Shown here one piece after another: positions 9,240 to 62,508 of a stretch of 64,000 bases of DNA. The stretch comes from Halanaerobium kushneri. GTDB lineage: Bacteria > Bacillota > Halanaerobiia > Halanaerobiales > Halanaerobiaceae. The notes under the pieces are model-generated. The model did no database searches, had not been told where the DNA came from, and worked only from the letters and a program-made list of their open reading frames with translations. The stretch's first letter is position 1; each line of letters begins with the position of its first letter. The position numbers and the translations under genes are program-made. The stretch covers positions 62,001-126,000 of the forward strand of contig NZ_FTNC01000004.1 in NCBI RefSeq assembly GCF_900156285.1, read 5' to 3'.

Positions 9240-9326
9240 TAAATATTGGGCAATATTATTGAAAAATAATGGCGCAAAGCTATGGGTCTAAGGAAATTGA
9301 CATCTATGACTGCCAGGTTGCTTTTG
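9240..9326 (+). ncRNA. c-di-GMP-I (GEMM) riboswitch
   Basis: Matches the GEMM-I consensus by eye: GGGCAA at the 5' side of P1, a P2 hairpin (TATTATTGAAAAATAATGG), the invariant core GGCGCAAAGC, then GGGTCTAAGG of the P3 arm and the closing GACTGCCAGGTTGC. It lies in the leader of the chemoreceptor gene at 9527 and is followed by a terminator. This indicates that c-di-GMP level controls how much of this receptor is made. Confidence 0.9.
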
Positions 9327-9348
9327 ATTTTTAAATATCAGAGTATCA

Positions 9349-9390
9349 AATAAATACTGGGCAATAAGTCTTTGGTATTTATTTTTTTAT
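9349..9390 (+). terminator. Riboswitch expression-platform terminator
   Basis: AATAAATAC (9349-9357) pairs perfectly with GTATTTATT (9375-9383), which runs into seven T residues. A competing small hairpin (TTTGAT with ATCAAA, ending at 9350) sits between aptamer and terminator and may be the antiterminator. The sign of control (ON or OFF) cannot be fixed by eye. Confidence 0.8.
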
Positions 9391-9526
9391 TTTAAAAGGA
9401 AAATTATTACTTTTATTAATAAAGATTACTGGTTAGTTATAGGTTTTATATAAATTAAAAGTGGAGAGTACAATTTATTAGCCGTATAATTTTATTTAAT
9501 AAAAACATAAAAAGGGAGAGACAAAA

Positions 9527-11491: not shown

Positions 11492-11580
11492 TAAATTTAT
11501 TTCATCTTTACCTCCCTTAACTTGAGTGATATAATTATAATTGAATATAATAAATCATAAAAAGGTTAAGGGTGGTAAAA

Positions 11581-12822
11581 GTGCTCTGTAACACACCGTG
11601 TTTTCTAAACGCGCTGGCATATAAAAGTGTGATTTTAAATGAAGATTTAGAAATAATTTTTATAAATGATGACTGGAAAGATTATATTTTAAAAAGTGAG
11701 AAAAATGTCGAGAATAACAGTATAGGATTAAACTATATTCAACTGATTAAACGACTAAATAAATCTGCTGCCGATTATTTTTCAGATATTGAATGCGGAA
11801 TTAAAAATGTTATATTAAATGAAGAGGATAAGTTTGAATTAGAATATCCCGAGTATTCTCCTGCAGAAACAGCCTGGTTTAAGTTGATAGTTACTCCCTT
11901 TGCAGATGGCGCATTAATTATGCATGAAGATATTACTGATAGAAAAAATGCAGAAACTGCTTTAAAAATAAAAGAAGAACAGTATAAAACAATATTTAAT
12001 AGTGCTCCTATCGGGATGCTGGTTGAAGATCCAGAAGGTAATATACTTGAAGTTAATGAAGCACTCTGCAATATGACCGGTTACAGTAAACAAGAATTAG
12101 AAGGAGATAATATTTTTAATCAGTTGGTTGGCCCAGAAAGAGTGGAAGAAGCAAAAAAAGACATTGAAATTATATTGAGTGGACAGGATTTAGAATTTAA
12201 TCTTGATAATACTAATAAAAATGGGAAACATTATTATACCCATTTTAAAGAAACAAAAATTAATCTACCGGATAGTGGGACCGGTATTTTATCAATGCAG
12301 GTTGACTTAACAAGTTTGAGAATAAAGGAAAAAAAATTAGAGTTTTTAAGTTATCATGATCAGCTAACCGGGTTGTATAACAGAGCTTTTTTTGACCAGG
12401 AGCTGAAAAGGCTGGATGAGCAAGAACAGCTCCCCTTAAGCCTGGTGGTTATAGATGTAAATGGTTTAAAGATGATAAATGATGCGCACGGACATCTGAC
12501 AGGAGATAAATTAATAAAAAAGGCAGCAGCTGTGCTTAAGTCAAGCTTGAGAGAGGATGATATTCTGGCCAGATTTGGTGGGGATGAGTTTGCTCTTATA
12601 TTGCCTCAAACTCCGGAAAAGGATGCGGAGAAAATTATAAAAAGAATCAAAGAAAAAAGTGCGAAAGTAAAAATCAGAGACAAAAATCTTTCACTGGGTA
12701 TTGGTTTTGCAACTAAAACTGAGATGAGTCAAGATATTGAAGAAATATTTAATAAAGCAGATGATAATATGTATAAAGATAAAATAAGTAAAAACAAAAA
12801 CAGAGAAGAGTTTAAAAGATAG
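11581..12822 (+). CDS. PAS-PAS-GGDEF diguanylate cyclase
   Basis: About 413 residues. An N-terminal PAS-like fold (residues about 10-120) is followed by a clear PAS domain (FNSAPIGMLVEDPEGNILEV core, NMTGYSKQELEG) and a GGDEF domain with GGDEF at residues 333-337 and REDD as the RxxD inhibitory site. It is soluble and probably an active diguanylate cyclase. Two GTG starts are possible, 11572 and 11581; I prefer 11581 because AAGGGTGG then falls at ribosome-site distance. It follows the interrupted chemoreceptor by 90 bases with no clear terminator between, so it may share the riboswitch-controlled transcript. Confidence 0.9.
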   Translation: MLCNTPCFLNALAYKSVILNEDLEIIFINDDWKDYILKSEKNVENNSIGLNYIQLIKRLNKSAADYFSDIECGIKNVILNEEDKFELEYPEYSPAETAWFKLIVTPFADGALIMHEDITDRKNAETALKIKEEQYKTIFNSAPIGMLVEDPEGNILEVNEALCNMTGYSKQELEGDNIFNQLVGPERVEEAKKDIEIILSGQDLEFNLDNTNKNGKHYYTHFKETKINLPDSGTGILSMQVDLTSLRIKEKKLEFLSYHDQLTGLYNRAFFDQELKRLDEQEQLPLSLVVIDVNGLKMINDAHGHLTGDKLIKKAAAVLKSSLREDDILARFGGDEFALILPQTPEKDAEKIIKRIKEKSAKVKIRDKNLSLGIGFATKTEMSQDIEEIFNKADDNMYKDKISKNKNREEFKR

Positions 12823-12862
12823 TAAAGATAATTAAAACAGTAAAAATAATATTAAATTATTA

Positions 12863-12903
12863 AAGCGGCTAAGTTCTTAAATTCTAAAGAGCTTAGCCGT
12901 TTA
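12863..12903 (+). terminator. Intrinsic terminator
   Basis: AAGCGGCTAAG pairs with CTTAGCCGTTT around a loop of about 17 bases and is followed by TTATTATTTT. It ends the transcript of the 11581 GGDEF gene. Confidence 0.75.
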
Positions 12904-13079
12904 TTATTTTAGATTTATAAATTTTATTTAAACTGATTATAAAAATTAGGTGCAGAGTTTAAATCTCTTTTATTAAATGTGTTGCCAGTTGACAAAGGAA
13001 TTTAGATTTTAGTATCGAATATACTAATAACAATTATTATTATATTCAGGATAAGGAAAACTTATTGAGGTGGAAAAAG

Positions 13080-15125
13080 ATGCTGGAAAATAATAAAGAG
13101 CAGAATATGCTGCTGGACACAATTGAAACACAGGTCTGGTATTTAAAGGATCCTTTTACTTATGGCAAAGCAAATCAGGCACATGCTGATTTTTTAGGTG
13201 TAGATAAGGAGGCCCTAGAAAATAAAAAATTAAATAAGGTTCTCTCTGATAAAGAAACTCAAATATGTAGTCTGAGCAATAAAAAGGTTTTTAAAGAAAA
13301 GAAAAAAATTAAGACGGAAGAATGGTTAAAAAATCATAAAGGTCAGGCAAGATTACTTGCGATAACTAAAAATCCAAAATTAAATAAAAGTGGTCAGGTG
13401 GATTATGTAGTATGTTCTGCCGAAGATATTACAGAACAAAAAGAAAGAGAATATATAGTTAAAGAGCTACATAAAATAGCTGTAGATTTTAAAGAACTAA
13501 AAAGCGAAAAAGAAATATGCGATATGACTGTAAAAGCCGCTGAGAGTCTTTTAGATTTTACCCTCTGTAATGTTATTTTAGCAAAAGGTGGGCAATTTAT
13601 ACCACTGGCTTCTTCCAGCAACTTTAAGCAGGAGCAGATTCCAATAACAGAAAAAAGCATTGCTGCCAGAACATTTCAGGAAGGTAAGAGTATTATAATT
13701 GATGATATTCAAAATAGTTTTGAAGCGGTGGCTATAAAAAACATTTATAAGTCAGGGATAAGTATTCCGATTGGAAACTATGGAGTTTTTCAGGCAGCAG
13801 CATCTAAAAAGAATGCTTTTTGTAAAAATGATCTGGAATTAGCAGAGATTTTAATATCACATGTTACCGCATCATTAGATAGAATATATGCTCAGGAAAG
13901 AATTAAAGAACAGAAAAATTTTCTGTCAACTATCTTAGAGGTGCAGAGCAGTCTTGTTTTATTAATAGATTCGGAGGGTAAAATTATTCGTTTTAATAAG
14001 GCCGCTGAGGAGCTTACAGGTTATAAAGAAAATGAAGTAAAAGGGGAAATTTTTTGGGATTTATTTATAAAAGAAACAGATAAAAAAGATGTTATCGACA
14101 CTTTTTGTCGACTAAAAAATAAGGATTATCCCTATAAATACGAAAATTATCTGCTGACAAAAACTGGGGAAGAAAAATTAATTGTCTGGTCCAATAATGT
14201 TATTTTAAATGATGCAGATGATATTAAATATGTTGTAGCCACCGGTATTGACATAACAAAAAGAAAAAGACAGGAAGAAAAACTAAAAGAACAAAAAGCA
14301 TATTTTGAACAGCTTTTTAATAATTCTACAGAAGCAATAGTTCTTCTAGATAATAAACATCGAGTAATTAAAGTTAATAAAAAATTTGAGTCTCTATTTG
14401 GATTTACACAATCAGAACTTATAAATAAAAATATTGATGATTATATCTTACCGGAGGAATTATTAGAATCAGGACAGGAATATACTGAGGAAGTAAAAGG
14501 AGGTAAAAAAGTTGAAGGTGAGAGTCTAAGAAAAACCAAAAATGGTGATAAAATAAATGTTCATCTGCAGGGTTTTCCCATTAAATTAGAAAATGGGCAG
14601 ATCGGTATCTATGGTTTATATCGAGATATTACGGAAAGAAAGAAGAGAGAAAAAAGAATAGAATATCTTTCTTTTCATGATGAAATGACAGGTCTATATA
14701 ATAGAAGATATTTTGAAAATGAATTAAAAAGACTGAGCTCTTCCCGCCAGCATCCAATAACAATTGTGATTGGAGATTTGGATGGTCTCAAGATCATCAA
14801 TGATACTTATGGCCATAAAAAAGGAGATGAGTATTTAGTTAATACAGCCCAAATACTAAAGGAAACTGCAAGAACTGAAGATATTATTGCTCGTATAGGT
14901 GGAGATGAGTTTGCTATGATTTTACCTGAGTCCAGATACAAAGAAGCAAAAAGTTTTTGCCAGAGATTGGAAAAAAATATTAAAGAATTTAACCAGGATA
15001 GAAACCTGGAGAAACCTTTGTCGATCTCGTTTGGTTTTGAGGTTATGATAGATGACAGCAGCAGTCTGGATAAGATTTTTAATAAAGCAGATCAGAATAT
15101 GTATTTAAATAAAGGTCGAAAATAG
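13080..15125 (+). CDS. PAS-GAF-PAS-PAS-GGDEF diguanylate cyclase
   Basis: A 681-residue multi-sensor cyclase. A short PAS-like domain (VWYLKDPFTYGKANQAH) is followed by a GAF domain (about residues 135-280), two typical PAS domains (about 285-400, IRFNKAAEELTGYKENEV; and about 410-525) and a GGDEF domain. GGDEF is at residues 607-611 with RTED as the RxxD I-site, so activity and product inhibition are both expected. I start at ATG 13080 because GAGGTGG lies six bases before it; an in-frame TTG at 13065 precedes the ribosome site. It stands between terminators and is probably transcribed alone. The cyclase domain is strongly similar to those of the neighbouring genes, pointing to local duplication. 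Confidence 0.92.
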   Translation: MLENNKEQNMLLDTIETQVWYLKDPFTYGKANQAHADFLGVDKEALENKKLNKVLSDKETQICSLSNKKVFKEKKKIKTEEWLKNHKGQARLLAITKNPKLNKSGQVDYVVCSAEDITEQKEREYIVKELHKIAVDFKELKSEKEICDMTVKAAESLLDFTLCNVILAKGGQFIPLASSSNFKQEQIPITEKSIAARTFQEGKSIIIDDIQNSFEAVAIKNIYKSGISIPIGNYGVFQAAASKKNAFCKNDLELAEILISHVTASLDRIYAQERIKEQKNFLSTILEVQSSLVLLIDSEGKIIRFNKAAEELTGYKENEVKGEIFWDLFIKETDKKDVIDTFCRLKNKDYPYKYENYLLTKTGEEKLIVWSNNVILNDADDIKYVVATGIDITKRKRQEEKLKEQKAYFEQLFNNSTEAIVLLDNKHRVIKVNKKFESLFGFTQSELINKNIDDYILPEELLESGQEYTEEVKGGKKVEGESLRKTKNGDKINVHLQGFPIKLENGQIGIYGLYRDITERKKREKRIEYLSFHDEMTGLYNRRYFENELKRLSSSRQHPITIVIGDLDGLKIINDTYGHKKGDEYLVNTAQILKETARTEDIIARIGGDEFAMILPESRYKEAKSFCQRLEKNIKEFNQDRNLEKPLSISFGFEVMIDDSSSLDKIFNKADQNMYLNKGRK

Positions 15126-15536
15126 AAGTTATTAAAGTATTTGATGGCTATAATAGTATAAAAAATTAATATATGTTTTTTTTAGAATCCTCTTCAGGGT
15201 GAAAAGATATCCTGCATAGGGTTCTTTTTTTATTAATAACTGTTTCTAATAAAAGAAAAATTTAACTTTTTTTAAAATATTACAAGGAGAAATTAATTTT
15301 TTCTAGAATCTGATTAATGCCTTATATTATAAAAAAGCAATATTATTTTATAAGCTAAGTAATTAAAAAAATAATTTATAGTGGAGGTGTTTATAAATGA
15401 TGTGACTCCTTTATGGTAGACAGATTAAATAATAAAAAAATTCAGTATTTTAGAAAGATTAAGTTAGCAATTCTAAAGGCTAATTGACTAAATTATAATT
15501 ATAGCTAATATTTTATACTTAAGTTGGTGAGAAAAT
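15126..15536. other. Intergenic region, 411 bases
   Basis: Holds the terminator of the upstream gene at its left end. A GTGGAGGTG ribosome-like site near 15382 precedes only a two-codon frame (ATG ATG TGA). I see no gene, tRNA or known riboswitch in it. Confidence 0.6.
15184..15231 (+). terminator. Intrinsic terminator
   Basis: AGAATCCT (15184-15191) pairs with AGGGTTCT (15218-15225) around an inner CAGG...CCTG stem, followed by a T run. The same hairpin design recurs at 33862. Confidence 0.75.
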
Positions 15537-16958
15537 ATGAATCGTTTTTTAAAACAAAAAAAGATAATAATAATTTATTTGGTAGTAGGTTTTGCCTGGA
15601 TATATTTTTCGGATAAAATTTTGTTATTTTTAATAAGCGATATAGATTACTACAATAAAATTCAGGATTATAAAGGGTTTTTTTATGTTTTATCAAATGC
15701 TATTTTGTTATATTTATTAATTAGTAAGTATACTTATAACATTAACAAAAGAAAAGATGAAGTTGATGCTTTAAATGAGCAGCTTATGGCTAATAATGAG
15801 GAATTAGTTGAATCTTTAGATGAACTTAATCAAATGAATGAAAGATTTATCTCAATGATTAATATTGTTTCTAATTTAAATAAACAGAACATATTTTATG
15901 AAGACGATTTTTTATCACAATTATTAGATGCAGCTGTTAAAATTGTTCCAGAAGCAGACTATGGGAAAATATATATTATAGAAAATGACCTTTGCAGATT
16001 TGTAAATTCTATTGGTCATGATTTTAATGTTCTAAAAAATATAAAAATCAAACAAAAAACTTTATTTGATTATAATAATAAAGGTGTATTTATTTCAGAT
16101 GATTATTCTATAAATATAGATAAAGTATCTAAAAAATATAAAGCTGATCTTTTAAAAGCATTAAAGCCAATAAAAAAATCTCTTTATATTGACATTAATA
16201 TGAACGAATCAATTGTCGGAAGAATTTCTCTTGATATTGCAGCTGGAAGTAATAAACAATTCTGCGAAACAACTAAAAAAGTACTAAATTCTTTTGCAGT
16301 TTTGGCATCATCCTTTTTTGCTTTTAAGTATTATAATAATTTGCAGGAGGAATTTACTAAAGAATTAACTGGCTCAATAATTAAGATTTTAGAAATTTAT
16401 GATCATTACACGAGAGGTCATTCTGAAAATGTGGCAAATTTAACTGTTAAAATTGCAGAAAGAATGGAAGTGTCAAAAAAGATGATTAATGATGCTTATT
16501 GGGCAGGCATGGTACATGATATTGGTAAACTACTGGTTCCTGTTAGTATTTTAAATAAGAAAGGAAAATTGGATGATGAAGAATTTCAATTAGTTAAAAA
16601 ACATCCAATCTGGGGAAATAAATCTTTATCAGATTCTGATGCTTTGAAACATATTTCAAAATATATTTTATATCATCATGAAAGATGGGATGGCAAAGGA
16701 TATCCAGCTGGCTTAAAGAACGAAGAAATTCCATTAATATCTCAAATGATTTGTGTAGCTGACTCCTGGGATGCAATGAGATCAAAAAGAGCATACAGAG
16801 AACCATTAAGTAAAGAAACAGCGTTATCGGAAATAAGAAAAAATAAAGGAACGCAATTTGCGCCAGAAGTAGTTGATGTATTTTTAGATATGATAGGTGA
16901 TGAAATTTCTGAAATAGATAAAGATATTGATACAAAACAATTAAATTTAGTCCGGTGA
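15537..16958 (+). CDS. Membrane-anchored HD-GYP phosphodiesterase
   Basis: A 473-residue protein with two N-terminal membrane helices (about residues 10-32 and 45-62), a coiled-coil linker (NEQLMANNEELVESLDEL), a GAF-like domain (about 105-270) and a C-terminal HD-GYP domain. The HD pair is at residues 327-328 (MVHDIGK) and GYP at 388-390 (HHERWDGKGYPAGL), so the metal-binding residues needed for c-di-GMP hydrolysis to GMP are present. No GGDEF domain is attached. It lies 81 bases before a chemoreceptor gene and may be co-transcribed with it. Its substrate is inferred from the family. Confidence 0.9.
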   Translation: MNRFLKQKKIIIIYLVVGFAWIYFSDKILLFLISDIDYYNKIQDYKGFFYVLSNAILLYLLISKYTYNINKRKDEVDALNEQLMANNEELVESLDELNQMNERFISMINIVSNLNKQNIFYEDDFLSQLLDAAVKIVPEADYGKIYIIENDLCRFVNSIGHDFNVLKNIKIKQKTLFDYNNKGVFISDDYSINIDKVSKKYKADLLKALKPIKKSLYIDINMNESIVGRISLDIAAGSNKQFCETTKKVLNSFAVLASSFFAFKYYNNLQEEFTKELTGSIIKILEIYDHYTRGHSENVANLTVKIAERMEVSKKMINDAYWAGMVHDIGKLLVPVSILNKKGKLDDEEFQLVKKHPIWGNKSLSDSDALKHISKYILYHHERWDGKGYPAGLKNEEIPLISQMICVADSWDAMRSKRAYREPLSKETALSEIRKNKGTQFAPEVVDVFLDMIGDEISEIDKDIDTKQLNLVR

Positions 16959-17039
16959 AAAGTGAATATATACATATTACGTGATTAAAAAATATTAAAT
17001 TTGAAATTTAAGTTATTAGTTTAAGGAGGAAAATTATAA

Positions 17040-19127
17040 ATGGTAAAATTTTATCAGAATTTGAAACTGGGAGTAAAAATTGGTGGTGGATTTACATTGC
17101 TTTTATTAATTAGTATTATATTAACATTTGTAGGATATAATGGATTAAAAAACATAAAATTAGATTTAGCAATAACCAATGATGCGGTATATTATGAGTC
17201 AACTGCTTTAAAAATTAAAGAAAATGAAAAAAATTTGATGTTAAAAAATGATAAGGAATATCTTAAAGAAATTAATAAAATGTTATCCAGTATGCTGAAG
17301 CAGTCTGAGAGTACAAAAAATAAAATGCAGCAGCAAAAAGATAAAAATGATATAAATGAAATGGAAAAGATAGCTTCTCAATATGAAAAAGCAGTAAATA
17401 CATATGCAGAATCATTATTTAAACAGAATGAACTTAGAAATAATTTTTTGAAATCAGAAGAGAATCTTTTGAGCAGTGTAAGTAGGATAGTGGAAGTGCA
17501 AAATGAAGAACTTGATAATATAATGGCTAGTCTTAACAATAATAGTAATAATAGTTCTAACTTTGAAGCAGAAAATTTAGAGAAAAAAATAAATACAATT
17601 AAATATGCAAACCAATTAAAAGAAAATATTAATCAAATTGGTTTACAGGAAAGAAATTATATTATTAACCTGGCTAATTTTGAACAGCAAAAATTATATG
17701 CTGAAAAAATTATAAATAATTTTTCAGAGTCAGAAACTATTGTCAATAATTTAATTCAAGGATTTGATAAAACAAATGATATAGAAATTGGAAAAGAAAT
17801 ATTAGCAGAGATTAAAGCTACAGAAAATACTTTTAGAGAGGTTAATGGTCTGGAACAGATTAAAGATGAAAATAAAGTACTTATGGAAAACAAGGCAGAA
17901 GCATTTATAGAAAGTGCTGATAACTTACAGGAAGATCAGTTGTTGGAGATAGAAATGGAAGAAGTTTCAGCTATTAGAAAGCTTATTATAACAGTAATTA
18001 TTTCTTTAATAGCAGGTGTTTTACTGGCAGTAATTATTACCAAAGGTATAACAAAAGCTATCAATAAAGCAAGTGATATAGCGCAAGAAATAGCATTGGG
18101 AAATTTAAATATAAAGGTTCCTGGTGCATATCTTAATAGAAAAGATGAAGTTGGATTGTTAGCTAAATCGCTTGATAAAATGATTGGTAATTTAAAAGGT
18201 TTGATTGGGAAAGTGGCAGACATATCATCAAATTTATCTGCTTCCAGTGAGGAATTGTCAGCGTCTGGGGAGGAAGTGGCAACTGCTGCTACTCAGGTTG
18301 GAGAGTCTATTCAGCAGGTTGCTTCTGGAGCAGAAGAACAGTCGGCTCAGGTAGAAGAGACAAATACTAAAATTAATGGGTTAATTAAACAAATAAAAAG
18401 TGTTAAGAGAAATTCTGAAGAGATGGATACTCAGGCAGAAAATGTAATGCAAAATATTAATGAAGGGAATGAATCTGTAGATAATTCTGTTAATCAAATA
18501 AAAAAAGTAAAAACAAATTCTAAAGAGGTATTTAAAACGATTAATAACTTGGGAGATTTATCAGATAAAATTGGTGAGATAGTGGGATTAATCAATAATA
18601 TAGCAGCTCAAACAAATCTTTTAGCTTTAAATGCTGCCATTGAAGCCGCAAGAGCTGGAGAAGCAGGACGAGGATTTTCGGTTGTTGCCGATGAAATAAG
18701 ACAGTTGGCAGAGGAATCTGAAGGTGCCACTAATCAAATTGGAGATCTTGTAAAAGAAATACAAAATGGAGTTGGAGATGCAGTAGTAAAGATGGATACG
18801 ACGGAAGAGGTAGTAAATGGAAGTGTCTCTGCAATTCAAAATACAGGTGAATCATTTGGCAAAATAAATAAAGCTGCAATTAAATTAAGAAAACTTATAG
18901 GGCAGATAAACAATAAGTCAAATAAAGTAGATCAAAATGCTGGTGAAGTAGAAACTATAGTAAAAGAAATTGCAAAAGTAAGTGAAGAAGCTGCCAGTAA
19001 TTCTCAGGAGGTAGCAGCCGCCAGTGAAGAACAAAGTGCATCAACTGAGGAAATAGTTAGTGCAGCAGATGAACTTGCAGCTATGGCAAATGATCTAACA
19101 AATGCTGTGAGTCAATTTGAACTTTAA
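17040..19127 (+). CDS. Methyl-accepting chemotaxis protein with helical-bundle sensor
   Basis: A 695-residue chemoreceptor. After a first membrane helix (about residues 14-34) comes an entirely helical, Lys/Glu/Asn-rich extracellular region of about 280 residues, typical of double four-helix-bundle sensors (HBM type), then a second helix (about 316-337), a HAMP domain and the signalling hairpin with tip [20 protein letters not shown] near residue 525; it ends SQFEL. The cytoplasmic part is nearly the same as that of the interrupted receptor at 9527 and gives the intact Gln where the latter has a stop codon. The sensor domains differ, so the two arose by duplication or domain swapping. The ribosome site AAGGAGG is strong. 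Confidence 0.94.
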
Positions 19128-19142
19128 TATTTAATGAAAAAC

Positions 19143-19178
19143 AAATAAAGTGCCAGTATTATATTGGCACTTTATTTA
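19143..19178 (+). terminator. Strong intrinsic terminator
   Basis: A perfect 13-base stem, AAATAAAGTGCCA (19143-19155) with TGGCACTTTATTT (19165-19177). Symmetric A and T tails make it able to work in both directions. Confidence 0.88.
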
Positions 19179-19201
19179 CTTTAACAAAAGTTGTGACAGG
19201 T

Positions 19202-19227
19202 GAGCTTTATATGTTAAAATAAAGCTC
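19202..19227. promoter_or_regulatory. Inverted repeat upstream of GGDEF/HD-GYP gene
   Basis: GAGCTTTAT (19202-19210) is repeated inverted as ATAAAGCTC (19219-19227), 64 bases before the next start codon. There is no T run after it, so an operator or an mRNA hairpin is more likely than a terminator. Function unknown. Confidence 0.4.
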
Positions 19228-19290
19228 GAAGTTAAAAAATTATAAGATATATAATGTTAAACAACTAGATTTCATTTGGGAAGTGTTTTA

Positions 19291-21705
19291 ATGGATAAAT
19301 ATAATATAAATAGGATTATGAAGGTTACTATAATTTCGGTTATTATAATCATTTTGTTTTTTTATCTTGGAATTTTTTCTCCGCTGAAGAGAAGATTAGA
19401 AGATTCTCTTGAAAACAATTTTTATAAACAAGTTTCTATATATGAAATAAGTATAGAAAGTCAGTTTAATGAATATATTGAAGAAAGTAAAAGTCTTTCC
19501 AGTAGAACAATGATAAAAAATAAATTAATTGAGTATGATAACCAGGAAATTACACTAGATGAACTAAAAAAATATACTAAATTTAAATATTTGGATGGTG
19601 TTCAAGTTTCAGATGATATTCTTGCTGCTTATAGAGTAACCAATGAAAATCAGATAGTTGTTCAATATGGAAACTTGGATTTTGATAGAATCAAATCATT
19701 TTATAATCATTTTTCTAATCAATTAAATGTTGGACTAATTAAAAAGAAAAACCTGGTTATCATTGATTCACCAATTTTAGCTAAAAATGGGAAGAGAGTA
19801 GGAAATGATTTAATTGTATTTGATATTAATGAATTTATGCAAAACTTTAATAAGGGTGATATTAAATCAGAAATAATATATAATAAAGGAGAAATTAAAA
19901 AACCTTTTGAAGAAGAAAATTATATATTAGAATATAGAAAAATTTTAAATACTAATTATTGGTTAAAAGTTGTTCAATCCGAATTAGATTTATATGATTC
20001 TTTAGATTTATTAACAGTTCGGATTGGAATTGTTTTTATAGTAATATTGCTGGTAATTTTAATAATTTTTTATAGAACAATTAGTACTGCATTTAATCAG
20101 ATTATTTCTGAATTAAAATTGAAAATCAAAAAGCTAAATGAGACTAAAGTTTTACTAGAAAATCAATATAAGTTTCAAAGAGTTCTTGCTGGAGTTTCTT
20201 CGGATTTAGTAAACTTAAGCACAAATAATTTTGACAAAAAAATAAATGGTTCTTTGGCTGAAATCGGACAGTTTTTTGATATTGATTTCATTCAAATTTT
20301 TAAATTTTCAGATGAGGAAAAGTTTATTTCAAGCATACATAAATGGGCTGATAATAATTTTAAGTTTCATATTAATGATTTGCAAAACTTACCAGTAAAT
20401 AGCCTTAATTGGTTGATAAAGCAAATTAAAGATAATGATTATTTTAAAATTTGTAAGGTCGATAACTTATCTCAAGGAAATAAAATGAAGAAGAAGCTAT
20501 TAAACTCATTAAATATTGAGTCTGCAGTCTTTGTACCAATATATATCGAGAATAGATTGTTTGGCGGCTATATTTTTGGAAACAGTAAAAATGAAATCTG
20601 TCAAAGTAAAAAAATAAAATATATTAATATATTTACAGAAGTTATAACCAGAGCAATTTCTAAGAATTTAGATGATCGTAAAATTGAAAAGTTAACTTAT
20701 TATGATTCACTAACAGGTCTTTACAATCGCAGATTTTTTGAAGAAGAAATGATACGACTGGATACTCCTAGAAAGTTGCCATTTAGTATTTTAGTTGCCG
20801 ACTTAAATGGGTTAAAAATTATTAATGATAGTTATGGACATGATAAAGGTGATGAAATGTTAAAAAAGGCAGCTCAAATAATTAAGAGTTCACTTCGAAA
20901 AGAAGATATATTAGCCCGACAGGGTGGAGATGAATTTGCTGTTTTATTACCTAATACTTCAAAAAATGAGGCAAAACAAATTGTCAGTAGAATAAAAAAG
21001 AAATGTAAAGAAACCAAAAATGATATGCTTCCAATTTCTATTGCTCTTGGCAGGGCTACTAAAAAAAGGTCAGAGCAGAAAATAGAAGAAATATTAAGAG
21101 AAGCTGACGATAAAATGTATAAAAATAAGTTATCTGAAAGTCGTAGTATTAAAAGTAATATAGTTAAGAGATTAATAAATGTTTTAAATGAAAAAAGTAG
21201 TGAAACAGAAGAACATGCTGTTAGAATGACTAAGTTAGCTTTTGAATTTGGAGAAAGTTTAGGGCTTTCAAATTCTGAACAGAATCGACTTTCAATGATA
21301 GCAACTCTGCATGATATTGGTAAGATAAATATTAAGGAAAAAATTTTAAAAAAAGAAGATAAATTAGATACTCAAGAATGGAACATGATTAAAAAGCATC
21401 CTGAATATGGTTATAAAATAGCAAAATCATCAGAAGAATTTGCAGCAGTAGCTGAAGATATTTTAGCACATCATGAACATTGGAATGGTAACGGTTATCC
21501 AAATCAATTAAAGGGAGAAGACATACCATATCTGGCAAGAGTAATTTTTATAATTGATGCTTATGATGTAATGACTCATGAACGTCCTTATTCAAAGGCG
21601 ATATCGAAAGAAGCTGCTTTAGAAGAAATTAAAAATTGTGCTGGTTCTCAATTTGATCCGAGTTTATCAGCTAAATTTATTAAATTTATGCATGAAAAAA
21701 ATTAA
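19291..21705 (+). CDS. Membrane Cache-like/GAF/GGDEF/HD-GYP protein
   Basis: An 804-residue protein that joins both c-di-GMP domains behind a periplasmic sensor. A first membrane helix (about residues 8-30), an extracellular Cache-like sensor region (about 35-230), a second helix (about 238-262) and a GAF-like domain (about 285-460) precede a GGDEF domain (GGDEF at 545-549, RKED as I-site) and an HD-GYP domain (HD at 674-675, HHEHWNGNGYP with GYP at 735-737). It resembles the 3526 protein in its catalytic half. ATG 19291 is preferred over an upstream in-frame TTG because GGGAAG lies eight bases before it. The stop overlaps that of the convergent gene by four bases. Confidence 0.9.
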   Translation: MDKYNINRIMKVTIISVIIIILFFYLGIFSPLKRRLEDSLENNFYKQVSIYEISIESQFNEYIEESKSLSSRTMIKNKLIEYDNQEITLDELKKYTKFKYLDGVQVSDDILAAYRVTNENQIVVQYGNLDFDRIKSFYNHFSNQLNVGLIKKKNLVIIDSPILAKNGKRVGNDLIVFDINEFMQNFNKGDIKSEIIYNKGEIKKPFEEENYILEYRKILNTNYWLKVVQSELDLYDSLDLLTVRIGIVFIVILLVILIIFYRTISTAFNQIISELKLKIKKLNETKVLLENQYKFQRVLAGVSSDLVNLSTNNFDKKINGSLAEIGQFFDIDFIQIFKFSDEEKFISSIHKWADNNFKFHINDLQNLPVNSLNWLIKQIKDNDYFKICKVDNLSQGNKMKKKLLNSLNIESAVFVPIYIENRLFGGYIFGNSKNEICQSKKIKYINIFTEVITRAISKNLDDRKIEKLTYYDSLTGLYNRRFFEEEMIRLDTPRKLPFSILVADLNGLKIINDSYGHDKGDEMLKKAAQIIKSSLRKEDILARQGGDEFAVLLPNTSKNEAKQIVSRIKKKCKETKNDMLPISIALGRATKKRSEQKIEEILREADDKMYKNKLSESRSIKSNIVKRLINVLNEKSSETEEHAVRMTKLAFEFGESLGLSNSEQNRLSMIATLHDIGKINIKEKILKKEDKLDTQEWNMIKKHPEYGYKIAKSSEEFAAVAEDILAHHEHWNGNGYPNQLKGEDIPYLARVIFIIDAYDVMTHERPYSKAISKEAALEEIKNCAGSQFDPSLSAKFIKFMHEKN

Positions 21706-54471: not shown

Positions 54472-54500
54472 TTGACAACCTTTCTCAACAGGAATATAAT
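54472..54500 (+). promoter_or_regulatory. Strong promoter of the appendage operon
   Basis: Consensus TTGACA (54472-54477) and TATAAT (54495-54500) with a 17-base spacer. It would start a transcript near 54507 with a leader of about 335 bases that contains a riboswitch. Confidence 0.85.
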
Positions 54501-54606
54501 GTAACCAGAAGAAAGAAGATTGTTAATTTTGTTTATTTAAACAATTTTGTTATAAAAAGTTTTAATTTCTAAATTTGTAGTGGAAAATTTAAAAGTAACA
54601 AAACAA

Positions 54607-54684
54607 TAAAGGAAGCTATGACCATCTGTTTTTCGATATGGACACCTTATAACAGATGCGAGCCAATGGTGTAACCGACCCTTA
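54607..54684 (+). ncRNA. c-di-GMP-II riboswitch
   Basis: It matches the architecture of the class II c-di-GMP aptamer. P1 pairs TAAAGG (54607-54612) with CCCTTA (54679-54684). Inside it lie an AAGC purine stretch, the hairpin CATCTGTT/AACAGATG (54623-54630 with 54651-54658), the pseudoknot ACACC/GGTGT (54642-54646 with 54668-54672) and the invariant GTAACCGA core. The last bases are shared with the terminator that follows, so ligand binding should block termination. It controls the DUF4402 subunit gene at 54842. Confidence 0.88.
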
Positions 54685-54697
54685 GGGGCCGGTTTTT
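54673..54697 (+). terminator. c-di-GMP-II expression-platform terminator
   Basis: AACCG-CCC pairs with GGG-CCGGTT around TTAG, followed by five T. Its left arm contains CCCTTA, the 3' strand of the aptamer's P1 helix; the two structures exclude each other. Confidence 0.85.
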
Positions 54698-54728
54698 GCT
54701 TTTTATAGAGAAAAAATATTAAATTTTC

Positions 54729-54786
54729 ATTGCTCAGTCTTTAAAGCAGTTAACTGCTTTAAAAACGCAAAAATTATATTTTGCGT
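54729..54786 (+). other. Hairpins in appendage-operon leader
   Basis: Downstream of the riboswitch are a palindrome TAAAGCAGTTAACTGCTTTA and a hairpin AACGCAAAA/TTTTGCGTT. They may stabilise the highly expressed subunit mRNA or act as operators. Function unknown. Confidence 0.45.
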
Positions 54787-54841
54787 TAGATAACAATTGT
54801 TTGTTGACTTATTTGTACACTTTAAGAAGGAGGTATATATT

Positions 54842-55432
54842 ATGAAAAATGCTGGTAAAATAATTCTTATTGTGGTGGTAGCGATTTTATTTTTTGGTTC
54901 ATCGGTACAGGCTCAACTAGATGCAAGTGAGGATGTTAATGTATATGCCGAAATATTAGATACAATTACAATTGATCCAGGTGATATGGGTGTTCAGGAT
55001 ATGGACTTTAGTTTTGGTACTTCTCCTACTGGAGGAAATGCAAGAATAATTTTAGGAACTGATGGAAGTCTAACAGTTGATGCTGATTCAGGTGCAAATA
55101 TTTTCTGGAATGATACTGGAACACCAGCAGTTGTTCAGGTTGGTGGAACTCCTGATCGTGCCTATGTAGTAAGTATTGAAGATTTTGAAGTAACTCCCAG
55201 TCAGTCTACCAGCTCAGGTGATGTGTCCATTGCTCTGGCTGACAGTGTATCTGGAGATTCTTTAACTGTAGATCAATTCCTGGTAGAAGGAACAAATATA
55301 GTGGATAGTGCCTTTAGTCTCGACGGCGATGGTTTTGATGAACTTACTATTGGAGCTGTTCTGACAGTGACAGATGGTATTTCTGTTGGCAACTATACTG
55401 GTCAGTTTAGCTTAACAGTTGCTTATGAATAA
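54842..55432 (+). CDS. DUF4402 major surface (pilin-like) subunit
   Basis: A 196-residue secreted protein behind a superb AAGGAGG site. A signal peptide (MKNAGKIILIVVVAILFFG) is cleaved near VQAQ. The mature part has the DUF4402 pattern: LDTITIDPGDMGVQDMDFSFG, a central VDADSG stretch, YVVSIEDF and the closing GAVLTVTD...GNYTGQFSLTVAYE strands. DUF4402 proteins are beta-sandwich subunits found with chaperone/usher-type genes. As the first gene after the riboswitch, small and followed by a terminator, it is the likely bulk subunit of a surface fibre. It is exported over the inner membrane and presumably guided by the chaperone encoded next. Confidence 0.85.
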   Translation: MKNAGKIILIVVVAILFFGSSVQAQLDASEDVNVYAEILDTITIDPGDMGVQDMDFSFGTSPTGGNARIILGTDGSLTVDADSGANIFWNDTGTPAVVQVGGTPDRAYVVSIEDFEVTPSQSTSSGDVSIALADSVSGDSLTVDQFLVEGTNIVDSAFSLDGDGFDELTIGAVLTVTDGISVGNYTGQFSLTVAYE

Positions 55433-55448
55433 TAAAATTAAGCATAAA

Positions 55449-55480
55449 GGGGCCAGATTTGATTTCTGGTCCCAATTTTA
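55449..55480 (+). terminator. Hairpin after major subunit gene
   Basis: GGGGCCAGA pairs with TCTGGTCCC, then AATTTTAA. A leaky terminator here would give more subunit than chaperone and usher. Confidence 0.7.
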
Positions 55481-55578
55481 ACTTTAAATTTTTTCTTCCC
55501 AGCTGCAGAATAGAATTTTCTGCCAGCTAAAGCTAAAGGTATATTCGTTTTAGTGGAAGAGCTAAGGGGGGTTATACT

Positions 55579-56445
55579 TTGGATATTACAAAAGTAAGAA
55601 TAAAAGCAATAAATTATTATGTTTTATCATTAATATTTTTGATTATCTTATTAAGTTTGACTCTAGAAGTGGAGGCAAATGTAACTGTCAATCCTACCCG
55701 TCTTATTTTAGAAAACGGACAAAGATCAGCAACGATTAAATTAATCAACCCTGACCAGGAAACAGCCACTTATAGAATTTCTTTGATTAACCTGGAGATG
55801 AAACAAACAGGTGATATAGAAGAACTTGCTATTGCCGATAATAGAGAAGAAAGAATTGAATCCCATTTTGCCAGAGATTTGATTCGTTATTCTCCCCGAC
55901 AGGTTGTTCTTCCTCCGAGACAGGCTCAGGTTGTTAGAATCCAATTAATGATTCCACCCGACCTGAATTCTGGAGAATATAGAGCTCACATGCTGTTTCA
56001 GGAGATTCCGGATCAGGGTGAGCAGGGAAATGGAGATAACGCTGAAACAGGAATCAATATAGCCTTAAAAACGGTTTATGGGGTTTCTATTCCAATTATT
56101 ATTCGTCATGGTGAAACCGGGGCTGAATTAGAAATTACAGATCTAGAGCTAAGTAACAACCTGGAGACAAAAATACCAGAACTTGCTCTGACTATTATAA
56201 GAACCGGTAATCAGTCTGAATATGGAGATATTGAAGTTAGCTATTTTGATGATAGTGGAGAAAAGAAATTAGTCGGTGCAATTAGAGGAACAGCTATTTA
56301 TACTGATATTGAGAAAAGAAAGTATAAAATAAGCCTTAAAAATATCGACAGTTTAAATCTTGACAAAGGAGTTCTGGAGGTTATTTATAAAAAAATATCC
56401 GCAGAGGGAGGAGAAATTCTGGCCAGAAATGAATTAAAACTTTGA
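55579..56445 (+). CDS. PapD-like fimbrial chaperone
   Basis: A 288-residue exported protein. After a signal helix the mature part starts VTVNPTRLILENGQRSATIKL, the Ig-like strand pattern of archaic/alternate fimbrial chaperones, and continues with RYSPRQVVLPPRQAQVVRI and SGEYRAHMLFQE, the conserved second half of domain 1. Such chaperones hold pilus subunits in the periplasm by donor-strand complementation and deliver them to an outer-membrane usher, so the gene implies a diderm cell. The start is TTG 55579 with AAGGGGGG before it. It lies between the DUF4402 subunit and usher genes. Confidence 0.85.
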   Translation: MDITKVRIKAINYYVLSLIFLIILLSLTLEVEANVTVNPTRLILENGQRSATIKLINPDQETATYRISLINLEMKQTGDIEELAIADNREERIESHFARDLIRYSPRQVVLPPRQAQVVRIQLMIPPDLNSGEYRAHMLFQEIPDQGEQGNGDNAETGINIALKTVYGVSIPIIIRHGETGAELEITDLELSNNLETKIPELALTIIRTGNQSEYGDIEVSYFDDSGEKKLVGAIRGTAIYTDIEKRKYKISLKNIDSLNLDKGVLEVIYKKISAEGGEILARNELKL

Positions 56446-56475
56446 TCTTGCTTTTAAAGTGAGGTGTTATCACAA

Positions 56476-59043
56476 ATGAAAAAAATTGTAGTGGGTTTAT
56501 TTTTAGTGTTTTTAATCTTTATTTTTGTTAGTCCTCTTAATGCTCAGGAAAAAACAGAGGGAAATTTAGTTCTTAAAGATGAAAATTTAATTCTGCTTGA
56601 GGTAGAGTTAAATAATTTGGGATTAAAAGACGAGTTTCTGACAGCTTATCGCTTTAACGAAACTGTTCTGCTTCCAATCGGACAGCTGCTGGCATTTTTG
56701 GAGCTGCCATTTAAAATAATTCCGGAGCAGGGATTGGTCGAAGGTTTTATCTGGGAAGAAGCCGAAAAATACAGTTTAAATCTTAATCAGGGAATTGCTA
56801 TCTCTAATGGGCGCGAATTTTCCTTAAATAAATATAAAACAGAAGTGGACTGGGATGATATTTATCTGGAGACAGAATTAATATCAGAATGGCTTCCATT
56901 TAGTCTGGAACTTGATTTATTTAGGGCGACTTTGACTGTGGAAACAGAAAAGCCGCTTCCCATTCAGGAAAAGATAGACAGGCGCTATCGCTGGGACAGG
57001 CTCTCTAATCGGACGGGTAGAGCTGAGCGACCTATTTATCCAGCGGTTGAAAATCCATACAGTCTTTTTAATGGCCCTTTTGTTGATCACAGACTTTATT
57101 TTTCTGGTGATTCGACTCCCAGACATTATACAAATCTAGCTGGAGATATATTTTATCTAAATGGCAGACTTTTTATTTCGGGGCCCCTGGATGATCCACT
57201 GGAAGATGTTAGTGGGAGGCTGGGGCGTCGCTCACCGGATCCAGATCTCCTGGGACCATTAAACGCTCATGAGTTCTGGCTTGGAGACCTGAGTCAGTCA
57301 GCGGTTAGCGATATTTCTTCCTGGGAATCAGTGCAGGGGATTTCAGTTAGTAGTTATCCCTACAGCCGCTCCCGAGACTTTTATTCGCATAGTTTAGAGG
57401 GCGAATTACCTGAAAACTGGGAAGTTGAGCTTTATGATAATGGAAATTTAATTGATTATCAGACTTCAAATGAAGAGGAACGATATCGATTTGAAAACAT
57501 TCCTATTAGTTATGGAATCAATGAATTTACTCTGGTTTTTTATGATGAATTTGGTCGTAAGTACGAAGAAGTTAAGAAAATAAGGGTTGATTCTACTTTG
57601 ATTCCCCCCGGCGAAAATCGCTATCAGTTTGAAATAGGCAGTGATGATCAGGATCAGAATCGGATATCTGTTGAGTTTAGCCGGGGAATAAATCCGAATC
57701 TTTCTCTAGTTACAAATTATGTTCGACTACCCATATCTGATCAAACAGAAGATTTTCTTCGTCTGGGTTTAAGAACATCCTTAAGTCAGATTTATCTGGA
57801 AGCTAATTATTTGAATGCTCTTGATGGAGGTCAGGGAGCTGAGTTAGGATTTTCCACTGATCTTTCTGGCACCAGAATTAATTTAACCCATGCTGAATTT
57901 GATGACTATAGGAGTGAGACAGTTTCGAATCTTAATCGGAGAACCAGTCTTGATTTGAGAAGAAACTTTCCTTTCCTCTCAAATTCCAGCCTGGGTGTCC
58001 GCCTTGATCTGACCAGAGAAGAAAATTATAATGGAGATATTTTAACTGAAGTCTATAATTGACTTTCAACTTCCTATAAAAAATATTCTTTTATAAATAG
58101 GTTAAATCTGCAGCTGCAGGAAGATGAGACTGAAGGTAGTGGAGATTTTGCAGTTCGAACCAGGATGAGGGATTATCGTTTACAGGGAAATCTGGGTTAT
58201 GATATTAATCCCTTTGACTTAGAAACAGTGTCAGCAGATCTCTCGGGTTATTTAAATGCAGATCATCGTTTTAATCTGGGTTTCACCAGAAATCTTGACC
58301 GGAGCGAAAATACCTATTCTGCAGGTATAGTACAGGATGTCGACTATTACTCCTGGGGTATAAATACCAGTTACCGGGATGATGGTGATTTTACAGTGGC
58401 CGTTAGTTTTTCAACCAGTTTTGGCCGCGATGATTTTAAAGAAGATCCTTATCATTTAGCACTTGGTCCTTCTGCTCGTGAGGGTGCTGTTCTGGTGACA
58501 AGTTATCTGGATACAGGTGAGGAGAAAAAACCTGTAGAGGCTGTTGCTTTTAAAATAAATGGTCGCACAGCTGATGTCAGAACTAATGAAAATGGAAAAG
58601 CATTTATTTATGGATTGAGACCTGATCTAAAAACTGATATTGCGATAGATCTTGAATCTTTAACCGATCCATTTCTGGTCAGTGACCCTGAGGGAGTTAG
58701 CTTTGTTCCCCGGGCCGGACAGACTTTTTATTTAGAACTACCAGTTATAATGACTGGAGAACTTGGTGGTTATGTTTATTTAGACAGAGGAGAAAGTACA
58801 AGCGGTATCAGAAATATTGAAGTTCAGCTTTTAGACAGTGAAAATAATGTTGTCAGAAGTACGCTAACAGCATATGACGGCTATTTTTATCTGGCTGAGC
58901 TGAGACCGGGTAACTATCTACTGAGGATTTCACCTGAAGCACTTGCTAGAAGAGAGTTAGTCGAGAATGAAGTTCAGGAGATAAGTATTCCTAAAAGTGG
59001 TGGATATCTTAATGATCTGCAGGTTATATTAAAAAGAAAGTAG
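56476..59043 (+). pseudogene. Outer-membrane usher-like protein interrupted by in-frame TGA
   Basis: An 855-codon reading frame with one TGA at 58060-58062 (codon 529). The start ATG 56476 has GAGGTG before it and a signal peptide ending LNAQE. The N-terminal part (LNNLGLKDEFLTAYRF) and middle (GDLSQSAVSDISSWESVQGI, YDNGNLIDYQTSNEEERY) look like an alternate-type usher periplasmic domain and plug; the region around the stop is rich in alternating beta-barrel strands (LSLVTNYVRL, TRINLTHAEFDDY, LGVRLDLTREE). After the stop the frame continues with more strands and ends in a Cna-B/carboxypeptidase-regulatory-like domain (VQLLDSENNVVRSTLTAYDG). The ancestral codon was probably TGG. If the stop is real, the barrel is incomplete and the appendage cannot assemble; sequencing error or suppression are alternatives. 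Confidence 0.78.
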
Positions 59044-59141: not shown

Positions 59142-60218
59142 ATGAGAAAAAGTAAAATGCTTGCTGTTGTATTAAGTATTAGCATTTTTTCAATAATAAT
59201 ATACTCTTTATTTGCATCTGCAACAGTTATGGAAAACGCTGGCTGTTTAAAAGTTAGCAAGAGCTGGGATGGGGATGATTTGCTGGCGCCTGAGTTGGTA
59301 ATAGTCGATATTTATAATTCCTCTGATAATAAAGTTGTCGGTATACTTTATTTGAATGAGCAAAACAACTGGGCGGATACTTTTTGTAATTTAGCTCTGG
59401 GAGAGTATTATGTTAAAGAGCGGCCGGTTTCTGGTTTTGATACTTTTTATCCAGCCGGTAACAGGGTGCAGATTACTGATCTAAATGACAGCGAAAATCC
59501 GGTGGAGTTAGAAATAGTAAATGAATATGCTTATCCACCCAGAACTTTTAAACTTAGTATTTATGAGGTTACGATTGTAGATGATATCTATCGAGTAACT
59601 GTTACTGTCTGCGCCGATCAGGATGGTAGTATCGAACGGGATATTTACTTCAATGATCAAAAAAGCGAAGTTGATTATATAGATTCTAAACCAATAACTC
59701 TTTTGAATAAAGGAGAATGTCAGCAGATTACTTTTGAAATAAATGTTGGTGACTTAGATTTATCACAACCTTATTATGTAGGTTATACTCAGCCGAATCA
59801 GTGGATAGAAATTGGCGAGCCCCGACAGTTTATACCGGTATCAATTGCAAAATTGGAAGATCTTTATTTTGGTTCATTTACAGCAGCTGATGGCACAATA
59901 ACAGTTGACCCCGCTGGTGTTTTAACAACGGGAAATGGTTATTCTGGCTATCATGATGGTAATCAGCAGTCTGCTGTTATTGAAGTGATCTGGCTTCCAT
60001 ATACTCAGTATAATATTAATTTTACTGATCAGACTATTATAAGCCATGATGCAAATAATAAGATGACTGTCAGCACTTTTGTAACTGACAATGATAGCAA
60101 AACCCTGGATGGAAATGGTTATGGTATTTTTAATATCGGAGCAACTCTGGATGTTAATGCTAATTTAGATCCTGGTTTATATAGTGGACAATTTTTTGTT
60201 ACCGTTACTTTTGAGTAA
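59142..60218 (+). CDS. Cna-B/DUF4402 two-domain surface subunit, possible tip adhesin
   Basis: A 358-residue secreted protein with signal peptide (MRKSKMLAVVLSISIFSIII). Residues about 30-130 look like a Cna-B/SpaA-type domain (GCLKVSKSWDGDD, LALGEYYVKERPVSGF). A middle domain of about 100 residues follows. The C-terminal 130 residues have the DUF4402 pattern (YFGSFTAADGTITVDPAGV, IFNIGATLDVNANLDPGLYSGQFFVTVTFE). A subunit-type pilin domain joined to extra N-terminal domains is the usual plan of a tip adhesin. It is the last gene of the usher cluster, behind GAAGGGGGAG, and is followed by a terminator. Binding target unknown. Confidence 0.78.
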   Translation: MRKSKMLAVVLSISIFSIIIYSLFASATVMENAGCLKVSKSWDGDDLLAPELVIVDIYNSSDNKVVGILYLNEQNNWADTFCNLALGEYYVKERPVSGFDTFYPAGNRVQITDLNDSENPVELEIVNEYAYPPRTFKLSIYEVTIVDDIYRVTVTVCADQDGSIERDIYFNDQKSEVDYIDSKPITLLNKGECQQITFEINVGDLDLSQPYYVGYTQPNQWIEIGEPRQFIPVSIAKLEDLYFGSFTAADGTITVDPAGVLTTGNGYSGYHDGNQQSAVIEVIWLPYTQYNINFTDQTIISHDANNKMTVSTFVTDNDSKTLDGNGYGIFNIGATLDVNANLDPGLYSGQFFVTVTFE

Positions 60219-60382: not shown

Positions 60383-60412
60383 TTGACAAAGAAGATTAAT
60401 TTGTAGTAGAAT
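60383..60412 (+). promoter_or_regulatory. Promoter before tandem riboswitches
   Basis: TTGACA (60383-60388) and TAGAAT (60407-60412), 18-base spacer. The transcript would start near 60419, just before the first riboswitch. Confidence 0.75.
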
Positions 60413-60439
60413 TAAGTTAAAGTAAATAATCACCCTGGC

Positions 60440-60530
60440 AGAGAAGGGCTACTTTTTCCGAAAGGTTAGAGGCGCAAAGTTGGAACCTAAGGTTTAATAA
60501 CTACGGTTGACTGACTACCTAAGTAGGGTT
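60440..60530 (+). ncRNA. c-di-GMP-I-type riboswitch, first of a tandem pair
   Basis: Shows the GEMM core in order: CCGAAAGG tetraloop stem, GGCGCAAAGTT, ACCTAAGG, then GACTGACTACCT with a CTAC/GTAG closing pair. The closing part deviates from the usual GCCAGGTTGCC, so this could be a variant aptamer. A terminator follows at 60540. Confidence 0.7.
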
Positions 60531-60539
60531 ATATGTCTT

Positions 60540-60572
60540 CCTGCTGTCATTATGACTGCAGGTTTTATATTT
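60540..60572 (+). terminator. Terminator between the tandem riboswitches
   Basis: CCTGC (60540-60544) pairs with GCAGG (60558-60562) with an inner TCAT/ATGA stem, then TTTTATATTTT. It is the expression platform of the first riboswitch. Confidence 0.75.
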
Positions 60573-60576
60573 TGTG

Positions 60577-60663
60577 CTCTCCTTGAAGGGGTAAACCTAT
60601 TGTGAAGTAGGGACACAAAGCTAAGGGTCTGAGCAAATCAGACTGCCTGGCTGCAAAAGGAGG
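60577..60663 (+). ncRNA. c-di-GMP-I riboswitch, second of a tandem pair
   Basis: GEMM-I match: GGGTAAACCTA, TGTGAAG hairpin, GGGACACAAAGC, TAAGGGTCTGAG, GACTGCCTGGCTGC. An outer stem can pair CTCCTT (60579-60584) with AAGGAG (60657-60662), which is the ribosome site of the gene at 60669; this suggests control of translation by hiding the site. Confidence 0.82.
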
Positions 60664-60668
60664 AAAAA

Positions 60669-61127
60669 ATGTTAAAAAAAATTAGTTTAATTGTTCTTTT
60701 TCTAGTTTTAAGTTTAAGTCTACAGGTGGCGGCGGATAGTGCTAGAGTTGGAATGTCAGTGACTATTATCGAACCTACACAGAAATTAGAAACTAGAAGA
60801 GCAGTTAATTTTGAAAGTGAATTTGCTAATAAAAATATAGATGCAGATCAAAAGGTAATGAAAATCGAAGCTGCAGGCGAGACAGTTATCAGCTCTAATC
60901 TTCCCTGGGAAATATATGCTGAAACACCCGAGCTTAATGGGGTGGATGTCTATGTTAGAAATAATTTAAATAAAAATTGGGTAAAAGTTAGTCAAAGCCG
61001 ACCAGTTTTAACAAATAGGACACTGGATAGGGCCAATTTAACCTGGGATGTTAAAGTAGTTGCAGCTGTGGATAAAGAAGTAAAACCATTTGCGGTTGAT
61101 TTTAAAATCGACTGGCCCAAAAATTAA
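60669..61127 (+). CDS. Secreted protein under tandem c-di-GMP riboswitches
   Basis: A 152-residue exported protein. Signal peptide MLKKISLIVLFLVLSLSLQ, cleavage near VAADS. The mature part is beta-rich (MSVTIIEPTQKLETRRAVNF, LTWDVKVVAAVDKEVKPFAVDFKIDW) and without cysteines; I do not recognise a family. The ribosome site AAGGAGG is five bases before ATG and is paired within the upstream riboswitch. Its place behind the appendage operon and its c-di-GMP control suggest a minor subunit or accessory protein of the same surface structure. Confidence 0.75.
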   Translation: MLKKISLIVLFLVLSLSLQVAADSARVGMSVTIIEPTQKLETRRAVNFESEFANKNIDADQKVMKIEAAGETVISSNLPWEIYAETPELNGVDVYVRNNLNKNWVKVSQSRPVLTNRTLDRANLTWDVKVVAAVDKEVKPFAVDFKIDWPKN

Positions 61128-62237: not shown

Positions 62238-62508
62238 GGCCGCACTAAATGGGGTGGTAGCGGTGCCCTGTAACCTGCAAACCGCTAGAGCAGGATTGAC
62301 GCCGTGGCTGAGGATTTTTTCTTTCAGGGTCTGGCCCTGATAAGTAGTGTTGACAATTGGGTCTCGCGCAATGAAGTCTTGTGAACCCCGTCAGGTCCGG
62401 GAGGAAGCAGCGGTAAGCAAGTCGCTTCATGTGCCGCGAGGGTGCCTGGTTCGAGCCAACTGTCAGGGTAACGCCTGGGAGAAAATCTTCGAAGCTCGGT
62501 GTGCGGCC
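62238..62508 (+). ncRNA. ffs: Signal recognition particle RNA, long Gram-positive type
   Basis: About 271 bases. The ends GGCCGCAC and GTGCGGCC pair. The S-domain tip is unmistakable: GTCAGGTCCGGGAGGAAGCA followed by GCGGTAAG. The long 5' part with GGTGCCCTGTAACC is the Alu domain found in Bacillus/Clostridium SRP RNA. It assembles with Ffh to target membrane and secreted proteins. Confidence 0.95.

Follow-up and report, generated by a model that had tools for sequence, protein, structure and literature searches.

The locus described here raises the question of whether a pilus operon of the chaperone-usher type, in a diderm member of the Firmicutes, is switched on by cyclic di-GMP (c-di-GMP) through its own leader RNA. 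We analyzed a stretch of 64,000 nucleotides from Halanaerobium kushneri (contig NZ_FTNC01000004.1, positions 62,001 to 126,000; hereafter the window), which belongs to a 3.2-Mb genome of the order Halanaerobiales (diderm Firmicutes). The initial annotation of this DNA had proposed a strong promoter, a class II c-di-GMP aptamer and an overlapping terminator in front of genes for a DUF4402 subunit, a PapD-like chaperone and an usher, with ligand binding turning the operon on. The genes behind the class II leader are, in order, a DUF4402 subunit, a PapD-like chaperone, an usher and a two-domain DUF4402 subunit. The best reading, to which we give a probability of about 0.75, is that of a conserved riboswitch-controlled chaperone-usher locus in which the ligand would act by antitermination, because the terminator takes the 3' strand of the aptamer.

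The class II leader and its terminator

Four elements of the initial annotation held up on inspection: the promoter matches its consensus throughout, the aptamer and the chaperone score above the cut-offs of their models and the first subunit matches the DUF4402 profile (Table 1). The aptamer core aligned to RF01786 with a posterior near 1, and its P1 helix is formed by the pairs U54607-A54684, A54608-U54683, A54609-U54682, G54611-C54680 and G54612-C54679. The terminator hairpin, AACCGACCC-UUAG-GGGCCGGUU followed by a U-rich tract, was equaled in strength by 2 of 500 dinucleotide shuffles of the window leader. Its left arm consists of AACCG and the CCC of the aptamer's CCCTTA P1 strand, while the TTA lies in the loop; the earlier proposal that the arm reuses CCCTTA was thus correct for the CCC but not for the TTA.

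Positions 54673-54681 are common to the terminator and the 3' strand of the aptamer, making the expression platform mutually exclusive with the aptamer, and the same holds in G033 and G036, two genomes from another Halanaerobiales family than the window genome. In all three loci that reach the leader (window, G033 and G036), the operon is headed by a class II aptamer and a terminator overlapping it, and terminators of equal strength arose in 3 and 1 of 500 shuffles for G033 and G036, respectively. The three loci also share the genes that follow, namely a DUF4402 subunit, the chaperone, the usher, a further DUF4402 subunit, a tandem class I c-di-GMP leader and a small protein. The computation establishes the aptamers, the terminator, the gene identities and the conserved order.

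We infer a response to the ligand, its ON sign, co-transcription of the operon and the assembly of a pilus. At low c-di-GMP, the leader RNA starting from 54500 would fold its AACCG-ACCC strand into the terminator, and transcription would end short of the pilin gene. With c-di-GMP high, the AACCG-ACCC strand would be held by the class II aptamer and its P1, so that the terminator is blocked, and the subunit, chaperone, usher and tip-like subunit would all be transcribed. The overlapping terminator in all three loci, together with the report that all four class II switches of Clostridioides difficile are ON switches (PMC6200980), argues for the ligand-ON logic as it was proposed at the outset (ligand forms P1, P1 prevents the terminator).

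Table 1. Features of the chaperone-usher locus and its two riboswitch leaders, in window coordinates
Feature	Position	Strand	Evidence
Sigma-70-type promoter, TTGACA-17-TATAAT	54472..54500	+	12/12 consensus; top of 33 matches in region
c-di-GMP class II aptamer	54602..54689	+	Rfam RF01786, 56.6 bits (gathering 53.5), E 7e-10 for window
Intrinsic terminator, expression platform overlapping aptamer 3' strand	54673..54694, U-rich tail to 54697	+	-10.9 kcal/mol
DUF4402 pilin subunit, putative major subunit	54842..55432	+	PF14352, E 2e-11
Possible attenuator, a hairpin resembling a terminator between the subunit and chaperone genes	55449..55473	+	Pattern scan; terminator matches of the region not above shuffles
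PapD-like periplasmic chaperone	55579..56445	+	PapD_N, 27.7 bits (cut-off 23), E 3e-6
Usher, first frame up to TGA at 58060-58062	56476..58062	+	Open reading frame
Usher continuation after the stop (barrel end, CTD1, CTD2)	58063..59043	+	Open; fold matches to FimD
Second subunit, N-terminal domain and C-terminal DUF4402 pilin domain, putative tip adhesin	59142..60218	+	PF14352
Promoter of tandem class I leader, TTGACA-18-TAGAAT	60383..60412	+	11/12 consensus
c-di-GMP class I aptamer 1	60437..60522	+	RF01051, 36.0 bits (gathering 35)
c-di-GMP class I aptamer 2, GGC variant	60581..60659	+	RF03167, 60.4 bits (gathering 59)
Small secreted protein, 152 aa	60669..61127	+	Family tied to class I riboswitches; homologues in seven loci (phmmer)

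The chaperone-usher genes and the class I leader

All 50 of the 50 structural re-alignment matches listed for the model of the first DUF4402 subunit were chaperone-usher pilins, at modest Z scores of 4.7-6.5; the top score, Z 6.5, was that of the archaic Csu pilus (7zl4), a rank shared with other pilins. The stretch 20-40 near its N-terminus appears unfolded; the pilin fold is supported and donor-strand exchange is putative. The second subunit carries PF14352 at residues 234-356 (E 2e-18) and a weak Cna_B match at 37-112, and its extra domain ahead of the pilin domain recalls two-domain tip adhesins. The chaperone profile matched the chaperones of Escherichia coli K-12 (P=1.9e-5, with shuffle controls). 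WxLIP was considered instead of PapD for the chaperone family, and with both near their cut-offs, the K-12 comparison and the gene company favor a PapD-like protein.

The third gene, of 855 codons, spans two frames in the window. Searches of its protein against Pfam, NCBIfam and PDB sequences gave no usher identity, and PF00577, PapC_N and PapC_C did not match it, so that it qualifies as a divergent usher homologue only; PF00577 was found in none of the 38 Halanaerobiales genomes and none of the 299 sampled genomes of the phylum. We built a profile from its Halanaerobiales relatives, two of them intact and full-length (G033 and G036) and one partial, and from five plasmid relatives from Alpha-, Beta- and Gammaproteobacteria, all of which lie in DUF4402 - chaperone - usher cassettes. 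This joint profile aligned to five E. coli K-12 ushers over 472 collinear columns running from the plug to the first C-terminal domain (CTD1), with a score of 53.8 (P=3e-5) compared to 22.6 for the reversed control and at most 25.3 for shuffled ones. The comparison with FimD alone by hhalign was too weak and became clear once the five plasmid relatives were added. FimD and PapC chains were among the best PDB fold matches of the usher model, and the FimD fold alignment covers the plug to the second C-terminal domain (CTD2), including CTD1-CTD2. By these sequence and model comparisons, the third gene is a homologue of FimD-family ushers, with a predicted layout of plug, putative barrel and C-terminal domains.

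The usher of the initial annotation therefore stands as a homologue by profile-profile and fold comparison, but the gene is split into two frames, 56476-58059 and 58063-59040, by a TGA at 58060-58062 that had gone unmentioned. The frame is open in the relatives, and the intact G033 and G036 proteins have Tyr at the TGA residue. The 326 codons past the TGA are open (chance about 3e-11), with an identity to G033 of 47% compared to 50% before the stop. Because the part after the stop is open and equally conserved, the change would be recent or a base error. Selenocysteine or stop reassignment was rejected, as the relatives have Tyr rather than Cys and the TGA is the only one in the frame. With this in-frame TGA, a surface structure in the window strain is doubtful, and the pilus is probably not assembled in the window genome unless the TGA is an error or is read through.

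Downstream of the operon lies a tandem class I pair at 60437-60659, which completes the locus and was missing from the initial annotation. Aptamer 1 was found by a local scan and missed by the whole-window scan; a hairpin, CCTGC...GCAGG-TTTT, follows it in the linker. The P1 partner of aptamer 2 is the Shine-Dalgarno (SD) sequence of the next gene (CTCCTT/AAGGAG), and at each of the three chaperone-usher loci the 5' P1 strand of the second class I aptamer is complementary to the SD ahead of the small gene. When formed by the ligand, P1 of aptamer 2 would cover the ribosome-binding site of the small secreted protein gene. Because of this pairing, the tandem leader is predicted to switch the small secreted protein OFF. 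Antiterminator pairing in the aptamer-1 linker was weakly above chance (p 0.07-0.09 each), a weak hint. Members of the small protein family that were scanned had no Pfam match; the family stands behind class I c-di-GMP aptamers at window 60437-61127 (aptamers included) and at loci L017, L060, L064, L066, L027 and L028.

Elsewhere in the window, a gene cluster bearing GGDEF and HD-GYP motifs (3526-21705, by motif search only) lies upstream of the pilus locus. A class I c-di-GMP riboswitch at 9239-9325 precedes a chemoreceptor-like gene (9527-11491) that has one in-frame stop. The bacterial large signal recognition particle RNA was found at 62240-62506 (206 bits); its neighbors are tRNA genes and a gamma/tau-like gene of DNA polymerase III.

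Alternative readings of the locus

Several observations weigh against a conserved, c-di-GMP-activated chaperone-usher locus. The conservation rests on three loci; the P1 helix of the window aptamer has one A.C mismatch and is weak; the Foldseek matches of the first subunit are each weak (E >= 0.04); WxLIP_PGBD scores about equal or better for the chaperones of G033 and G036; and the window usher, besides having no Pfam usher, PapC_N or PapC_C domain, has a model with a mean pLDDT (predicted local distance difference test) of 46.5, whose barrel part falls under 50 and is not confidently modeled, and a frame that the TGA leaves broken. The weak P1, an RF01786 score just 3 bits above the cut-off and the presence in Halanaerobiales of divergent clan members, e.g. 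c-di-GMP-II-GAG, could be accommodated by a class II aptamer that binds another ligand or none, or that works as an OFF switch. We consider this improbable: the aptamer core aligns without ambiguity, the same window has genes bearing GGDEF and HD-GYP motifs, and at each of the three loci the aptamer strand is the one used by the terminator, so that binding should oppose termination. Similarly, the missing Pfam domains, the poorly modeled barrel and the CTD2, which also matches CnaB-like domains, would fit another outer-membrane barrel with Ig/CarboxypepD-like ends, the chaperone and DUF4402 proteins then forming a non-pilus surface layer. We hold this to be just as improbable, given the collinear plug-to-CTD1 match to the K-12 ushers with clean controls, the FimD fold rows spanning plug to CTD2, and the PapD-like chaperone and DUF4402 pilins that always accompany the usher, Proteobacteria included.

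The in-frame stop gives rise to a much stronger contender, to which we assign only slightly less than even odds, namely that the switch is intact and its target is a decaying pseudo-operon, in which the TGA ends the usher in the middle of the barrel and c-di-GMP drives subunits and a chaperone that cannot be exported. The Tyr at that residue in both intact relatives favors decay, as does the single in-frame stop in another window gene, the chemoreceptor-like gene described above. However, the remaining genes of the operon are open, and the open, equally conserved codons after the stop imply that any decay is very recent, or that the stop is a base error. As for the class I leader, the weak antiterminator pairing in the aptamer-1 linker and the membership of aptamer 2 in a named variant family leave some room for a ligand that turns the small protein ON, or for an aptamer 2 that senses another ligand. 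This seems unlikely, though clearly less so than the alternatives for the class II aptamer and the usher; it is opposed by the complementarity of the SD and the 5' P1 strand at every chaperone-usher locus and by the report that six of seven responsive class I switches of C. difficile lower transcript levels; that species has the same division into class II ON and class I OFF switches (PMC6200980).

Distribution, known systems and meaning

Class II aptamers gave 28 hits across 22 of the 38 Halanaerobiales genomes. An overlapping terminator accompanied 8 of the hits, and in 17 the 5' strand of P1 could pair with the SD region (p<=0.02); judged from sequence, both designs read as ON. About seven hits lead curli operons (six carrying Pfam curlin repeats, the other CsgG and curlin-like repeats), four lead type IV pilus genes, three chaperone/secretin operons and three the chaperone-usher operon described here; most of the others lead secreted proteins. 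Before the curli operons, which come from five genomes (L057, L058, L065, L066, L070, L072 and L075), the SD-sequestering strand is complementary to the 5' P1 strand (ON). The window genome itself has a second class II riboswitch (locus L013, G000:C42:8000-25328; 11563-11648, minus strand), flanked on one side by a curli operon (CsgG, CsgF, curlin repeats) and on the other by a large operon that encodes a secretin, subunits, a usher-like protein of 1016 aa and two chaperones, one WxLIP-like and one PapD-like. At L056 (G031), a class II aptamer and a strong terminator precede genes for a small subunit, a 492-aa protein that is Ig-like and a surface/outer-membrane-like protein of 1248 aa.

The small secreted protein was also found behind class I aptamers beside class-II-led genes, at G017:C18, which is a curli locus, as well as in G004 and G009, and the window genome has a second class I and small-protein unit at C20. 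In G006 and G021, a single locus carries aptamers of both classes on the same strand, in G021 before a curlin-like gene. We tentatively propose, at somewhat less than even odds, a reciprocal module in which class II turns a surface-fibre operon ON (chaperone-usher pili, curli or other secreted subunits) and an adjoining, often tandem, class I leader turns a small secreted protein of one family OFF. That protein could serve as an assembly inhibitor, a terminator or an anti-adhesive counterpart.

The window-type usher profile matched 2 of the 299 genomes of the phylum. Further Halanaerobiales have usher-like frames of about 1,015-1,096 aa, matched by the plug or C-terminal parts of usher profiles (L092-L095, G025:C211, G007:C92, G024:C2, G037:C89 and G016:C16), which would represent a second, commoner usher-like lineage of the order.

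In C. difficile, the class II switches that precede adhesin genes and the type IV pilus gene pilA1 (PMC6200980) resemble the window in riboswitch class, ON logic, appendage target and occurrence in Firmicutes. What they control in this monoderm are sortase-type adhesins or type IV pili, whereas the window, from a diderm, has a chaperone-usher operon with a tandem class I leader behind it. The archaic Csu pili of Acinetobacter share the grouping of subunit, chaperone, usher and two-domain subunit genes and provide the best structural match of the subunit; the possible archaic link comes from this match, for which other pilins tie. The window differs from them in an usher beyond the reach of Pfam Usher, PapC_N and PapC_C, a CarboxypepD/SdrD_B-like CTD2 and riboswitch control. 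Plasmid cassettes of Polaromonas, Pseudoalteromonas, Sphingopyxis and Novosphingobium line up members of the window's three gene families (DUF4402, chaperone and a 'carboxypeptidase-like regulatory domain' protein) in an identical order, with ushers 22-28% identical to the window usher over its length. Their third gene is not annotated as an usher, and their loci contain no riboswitch or other Rfam match, differing in this from the window. Transfer from Proteobacteria followed by acquisition of the riboswitch is plausible on these comparisons. In the available part of a study of tandem riboswitches, class I doublets are common (347 reported) and a glycine/c-di-GMP-I tandem precedes curlin-related genes, while neither a class II and class I pair on one appendage locus nor chaperone-usher targets are described there (PMC9481103). 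The titles, abstract openings and passages of the literature that were searched gave no precedent for a riboswitch with a chaperone-usher system or for an usher in Halanaerobiales, and none of the papers searched combined DUF4402 with an usher.

A survey of secretion systems did not model chaperone-usher systems (PMC4793230). This omission, and the failure of PF00577 to find any usher among the 299 genomes, suggests that the chaperone-usher pathway has been overlooked outside Proteobacteria. DUF4402 is thereby given a concrete likely role as a pilin domain. The locus would place a surface pilus directly under a c-di-GMP riboswitch, and a chaperone-usher lineage in this diderm Firmicutes order is probably under direct, two-signed riboswitch control. 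The pairing of class II with class I makes it testable whether one second messenger has two opposite outputs at one locus through RNA alone. If the reciprocal module is true, one signal would set the envelope to either of two states, with no need for a regulatory protein dedicated to the task.

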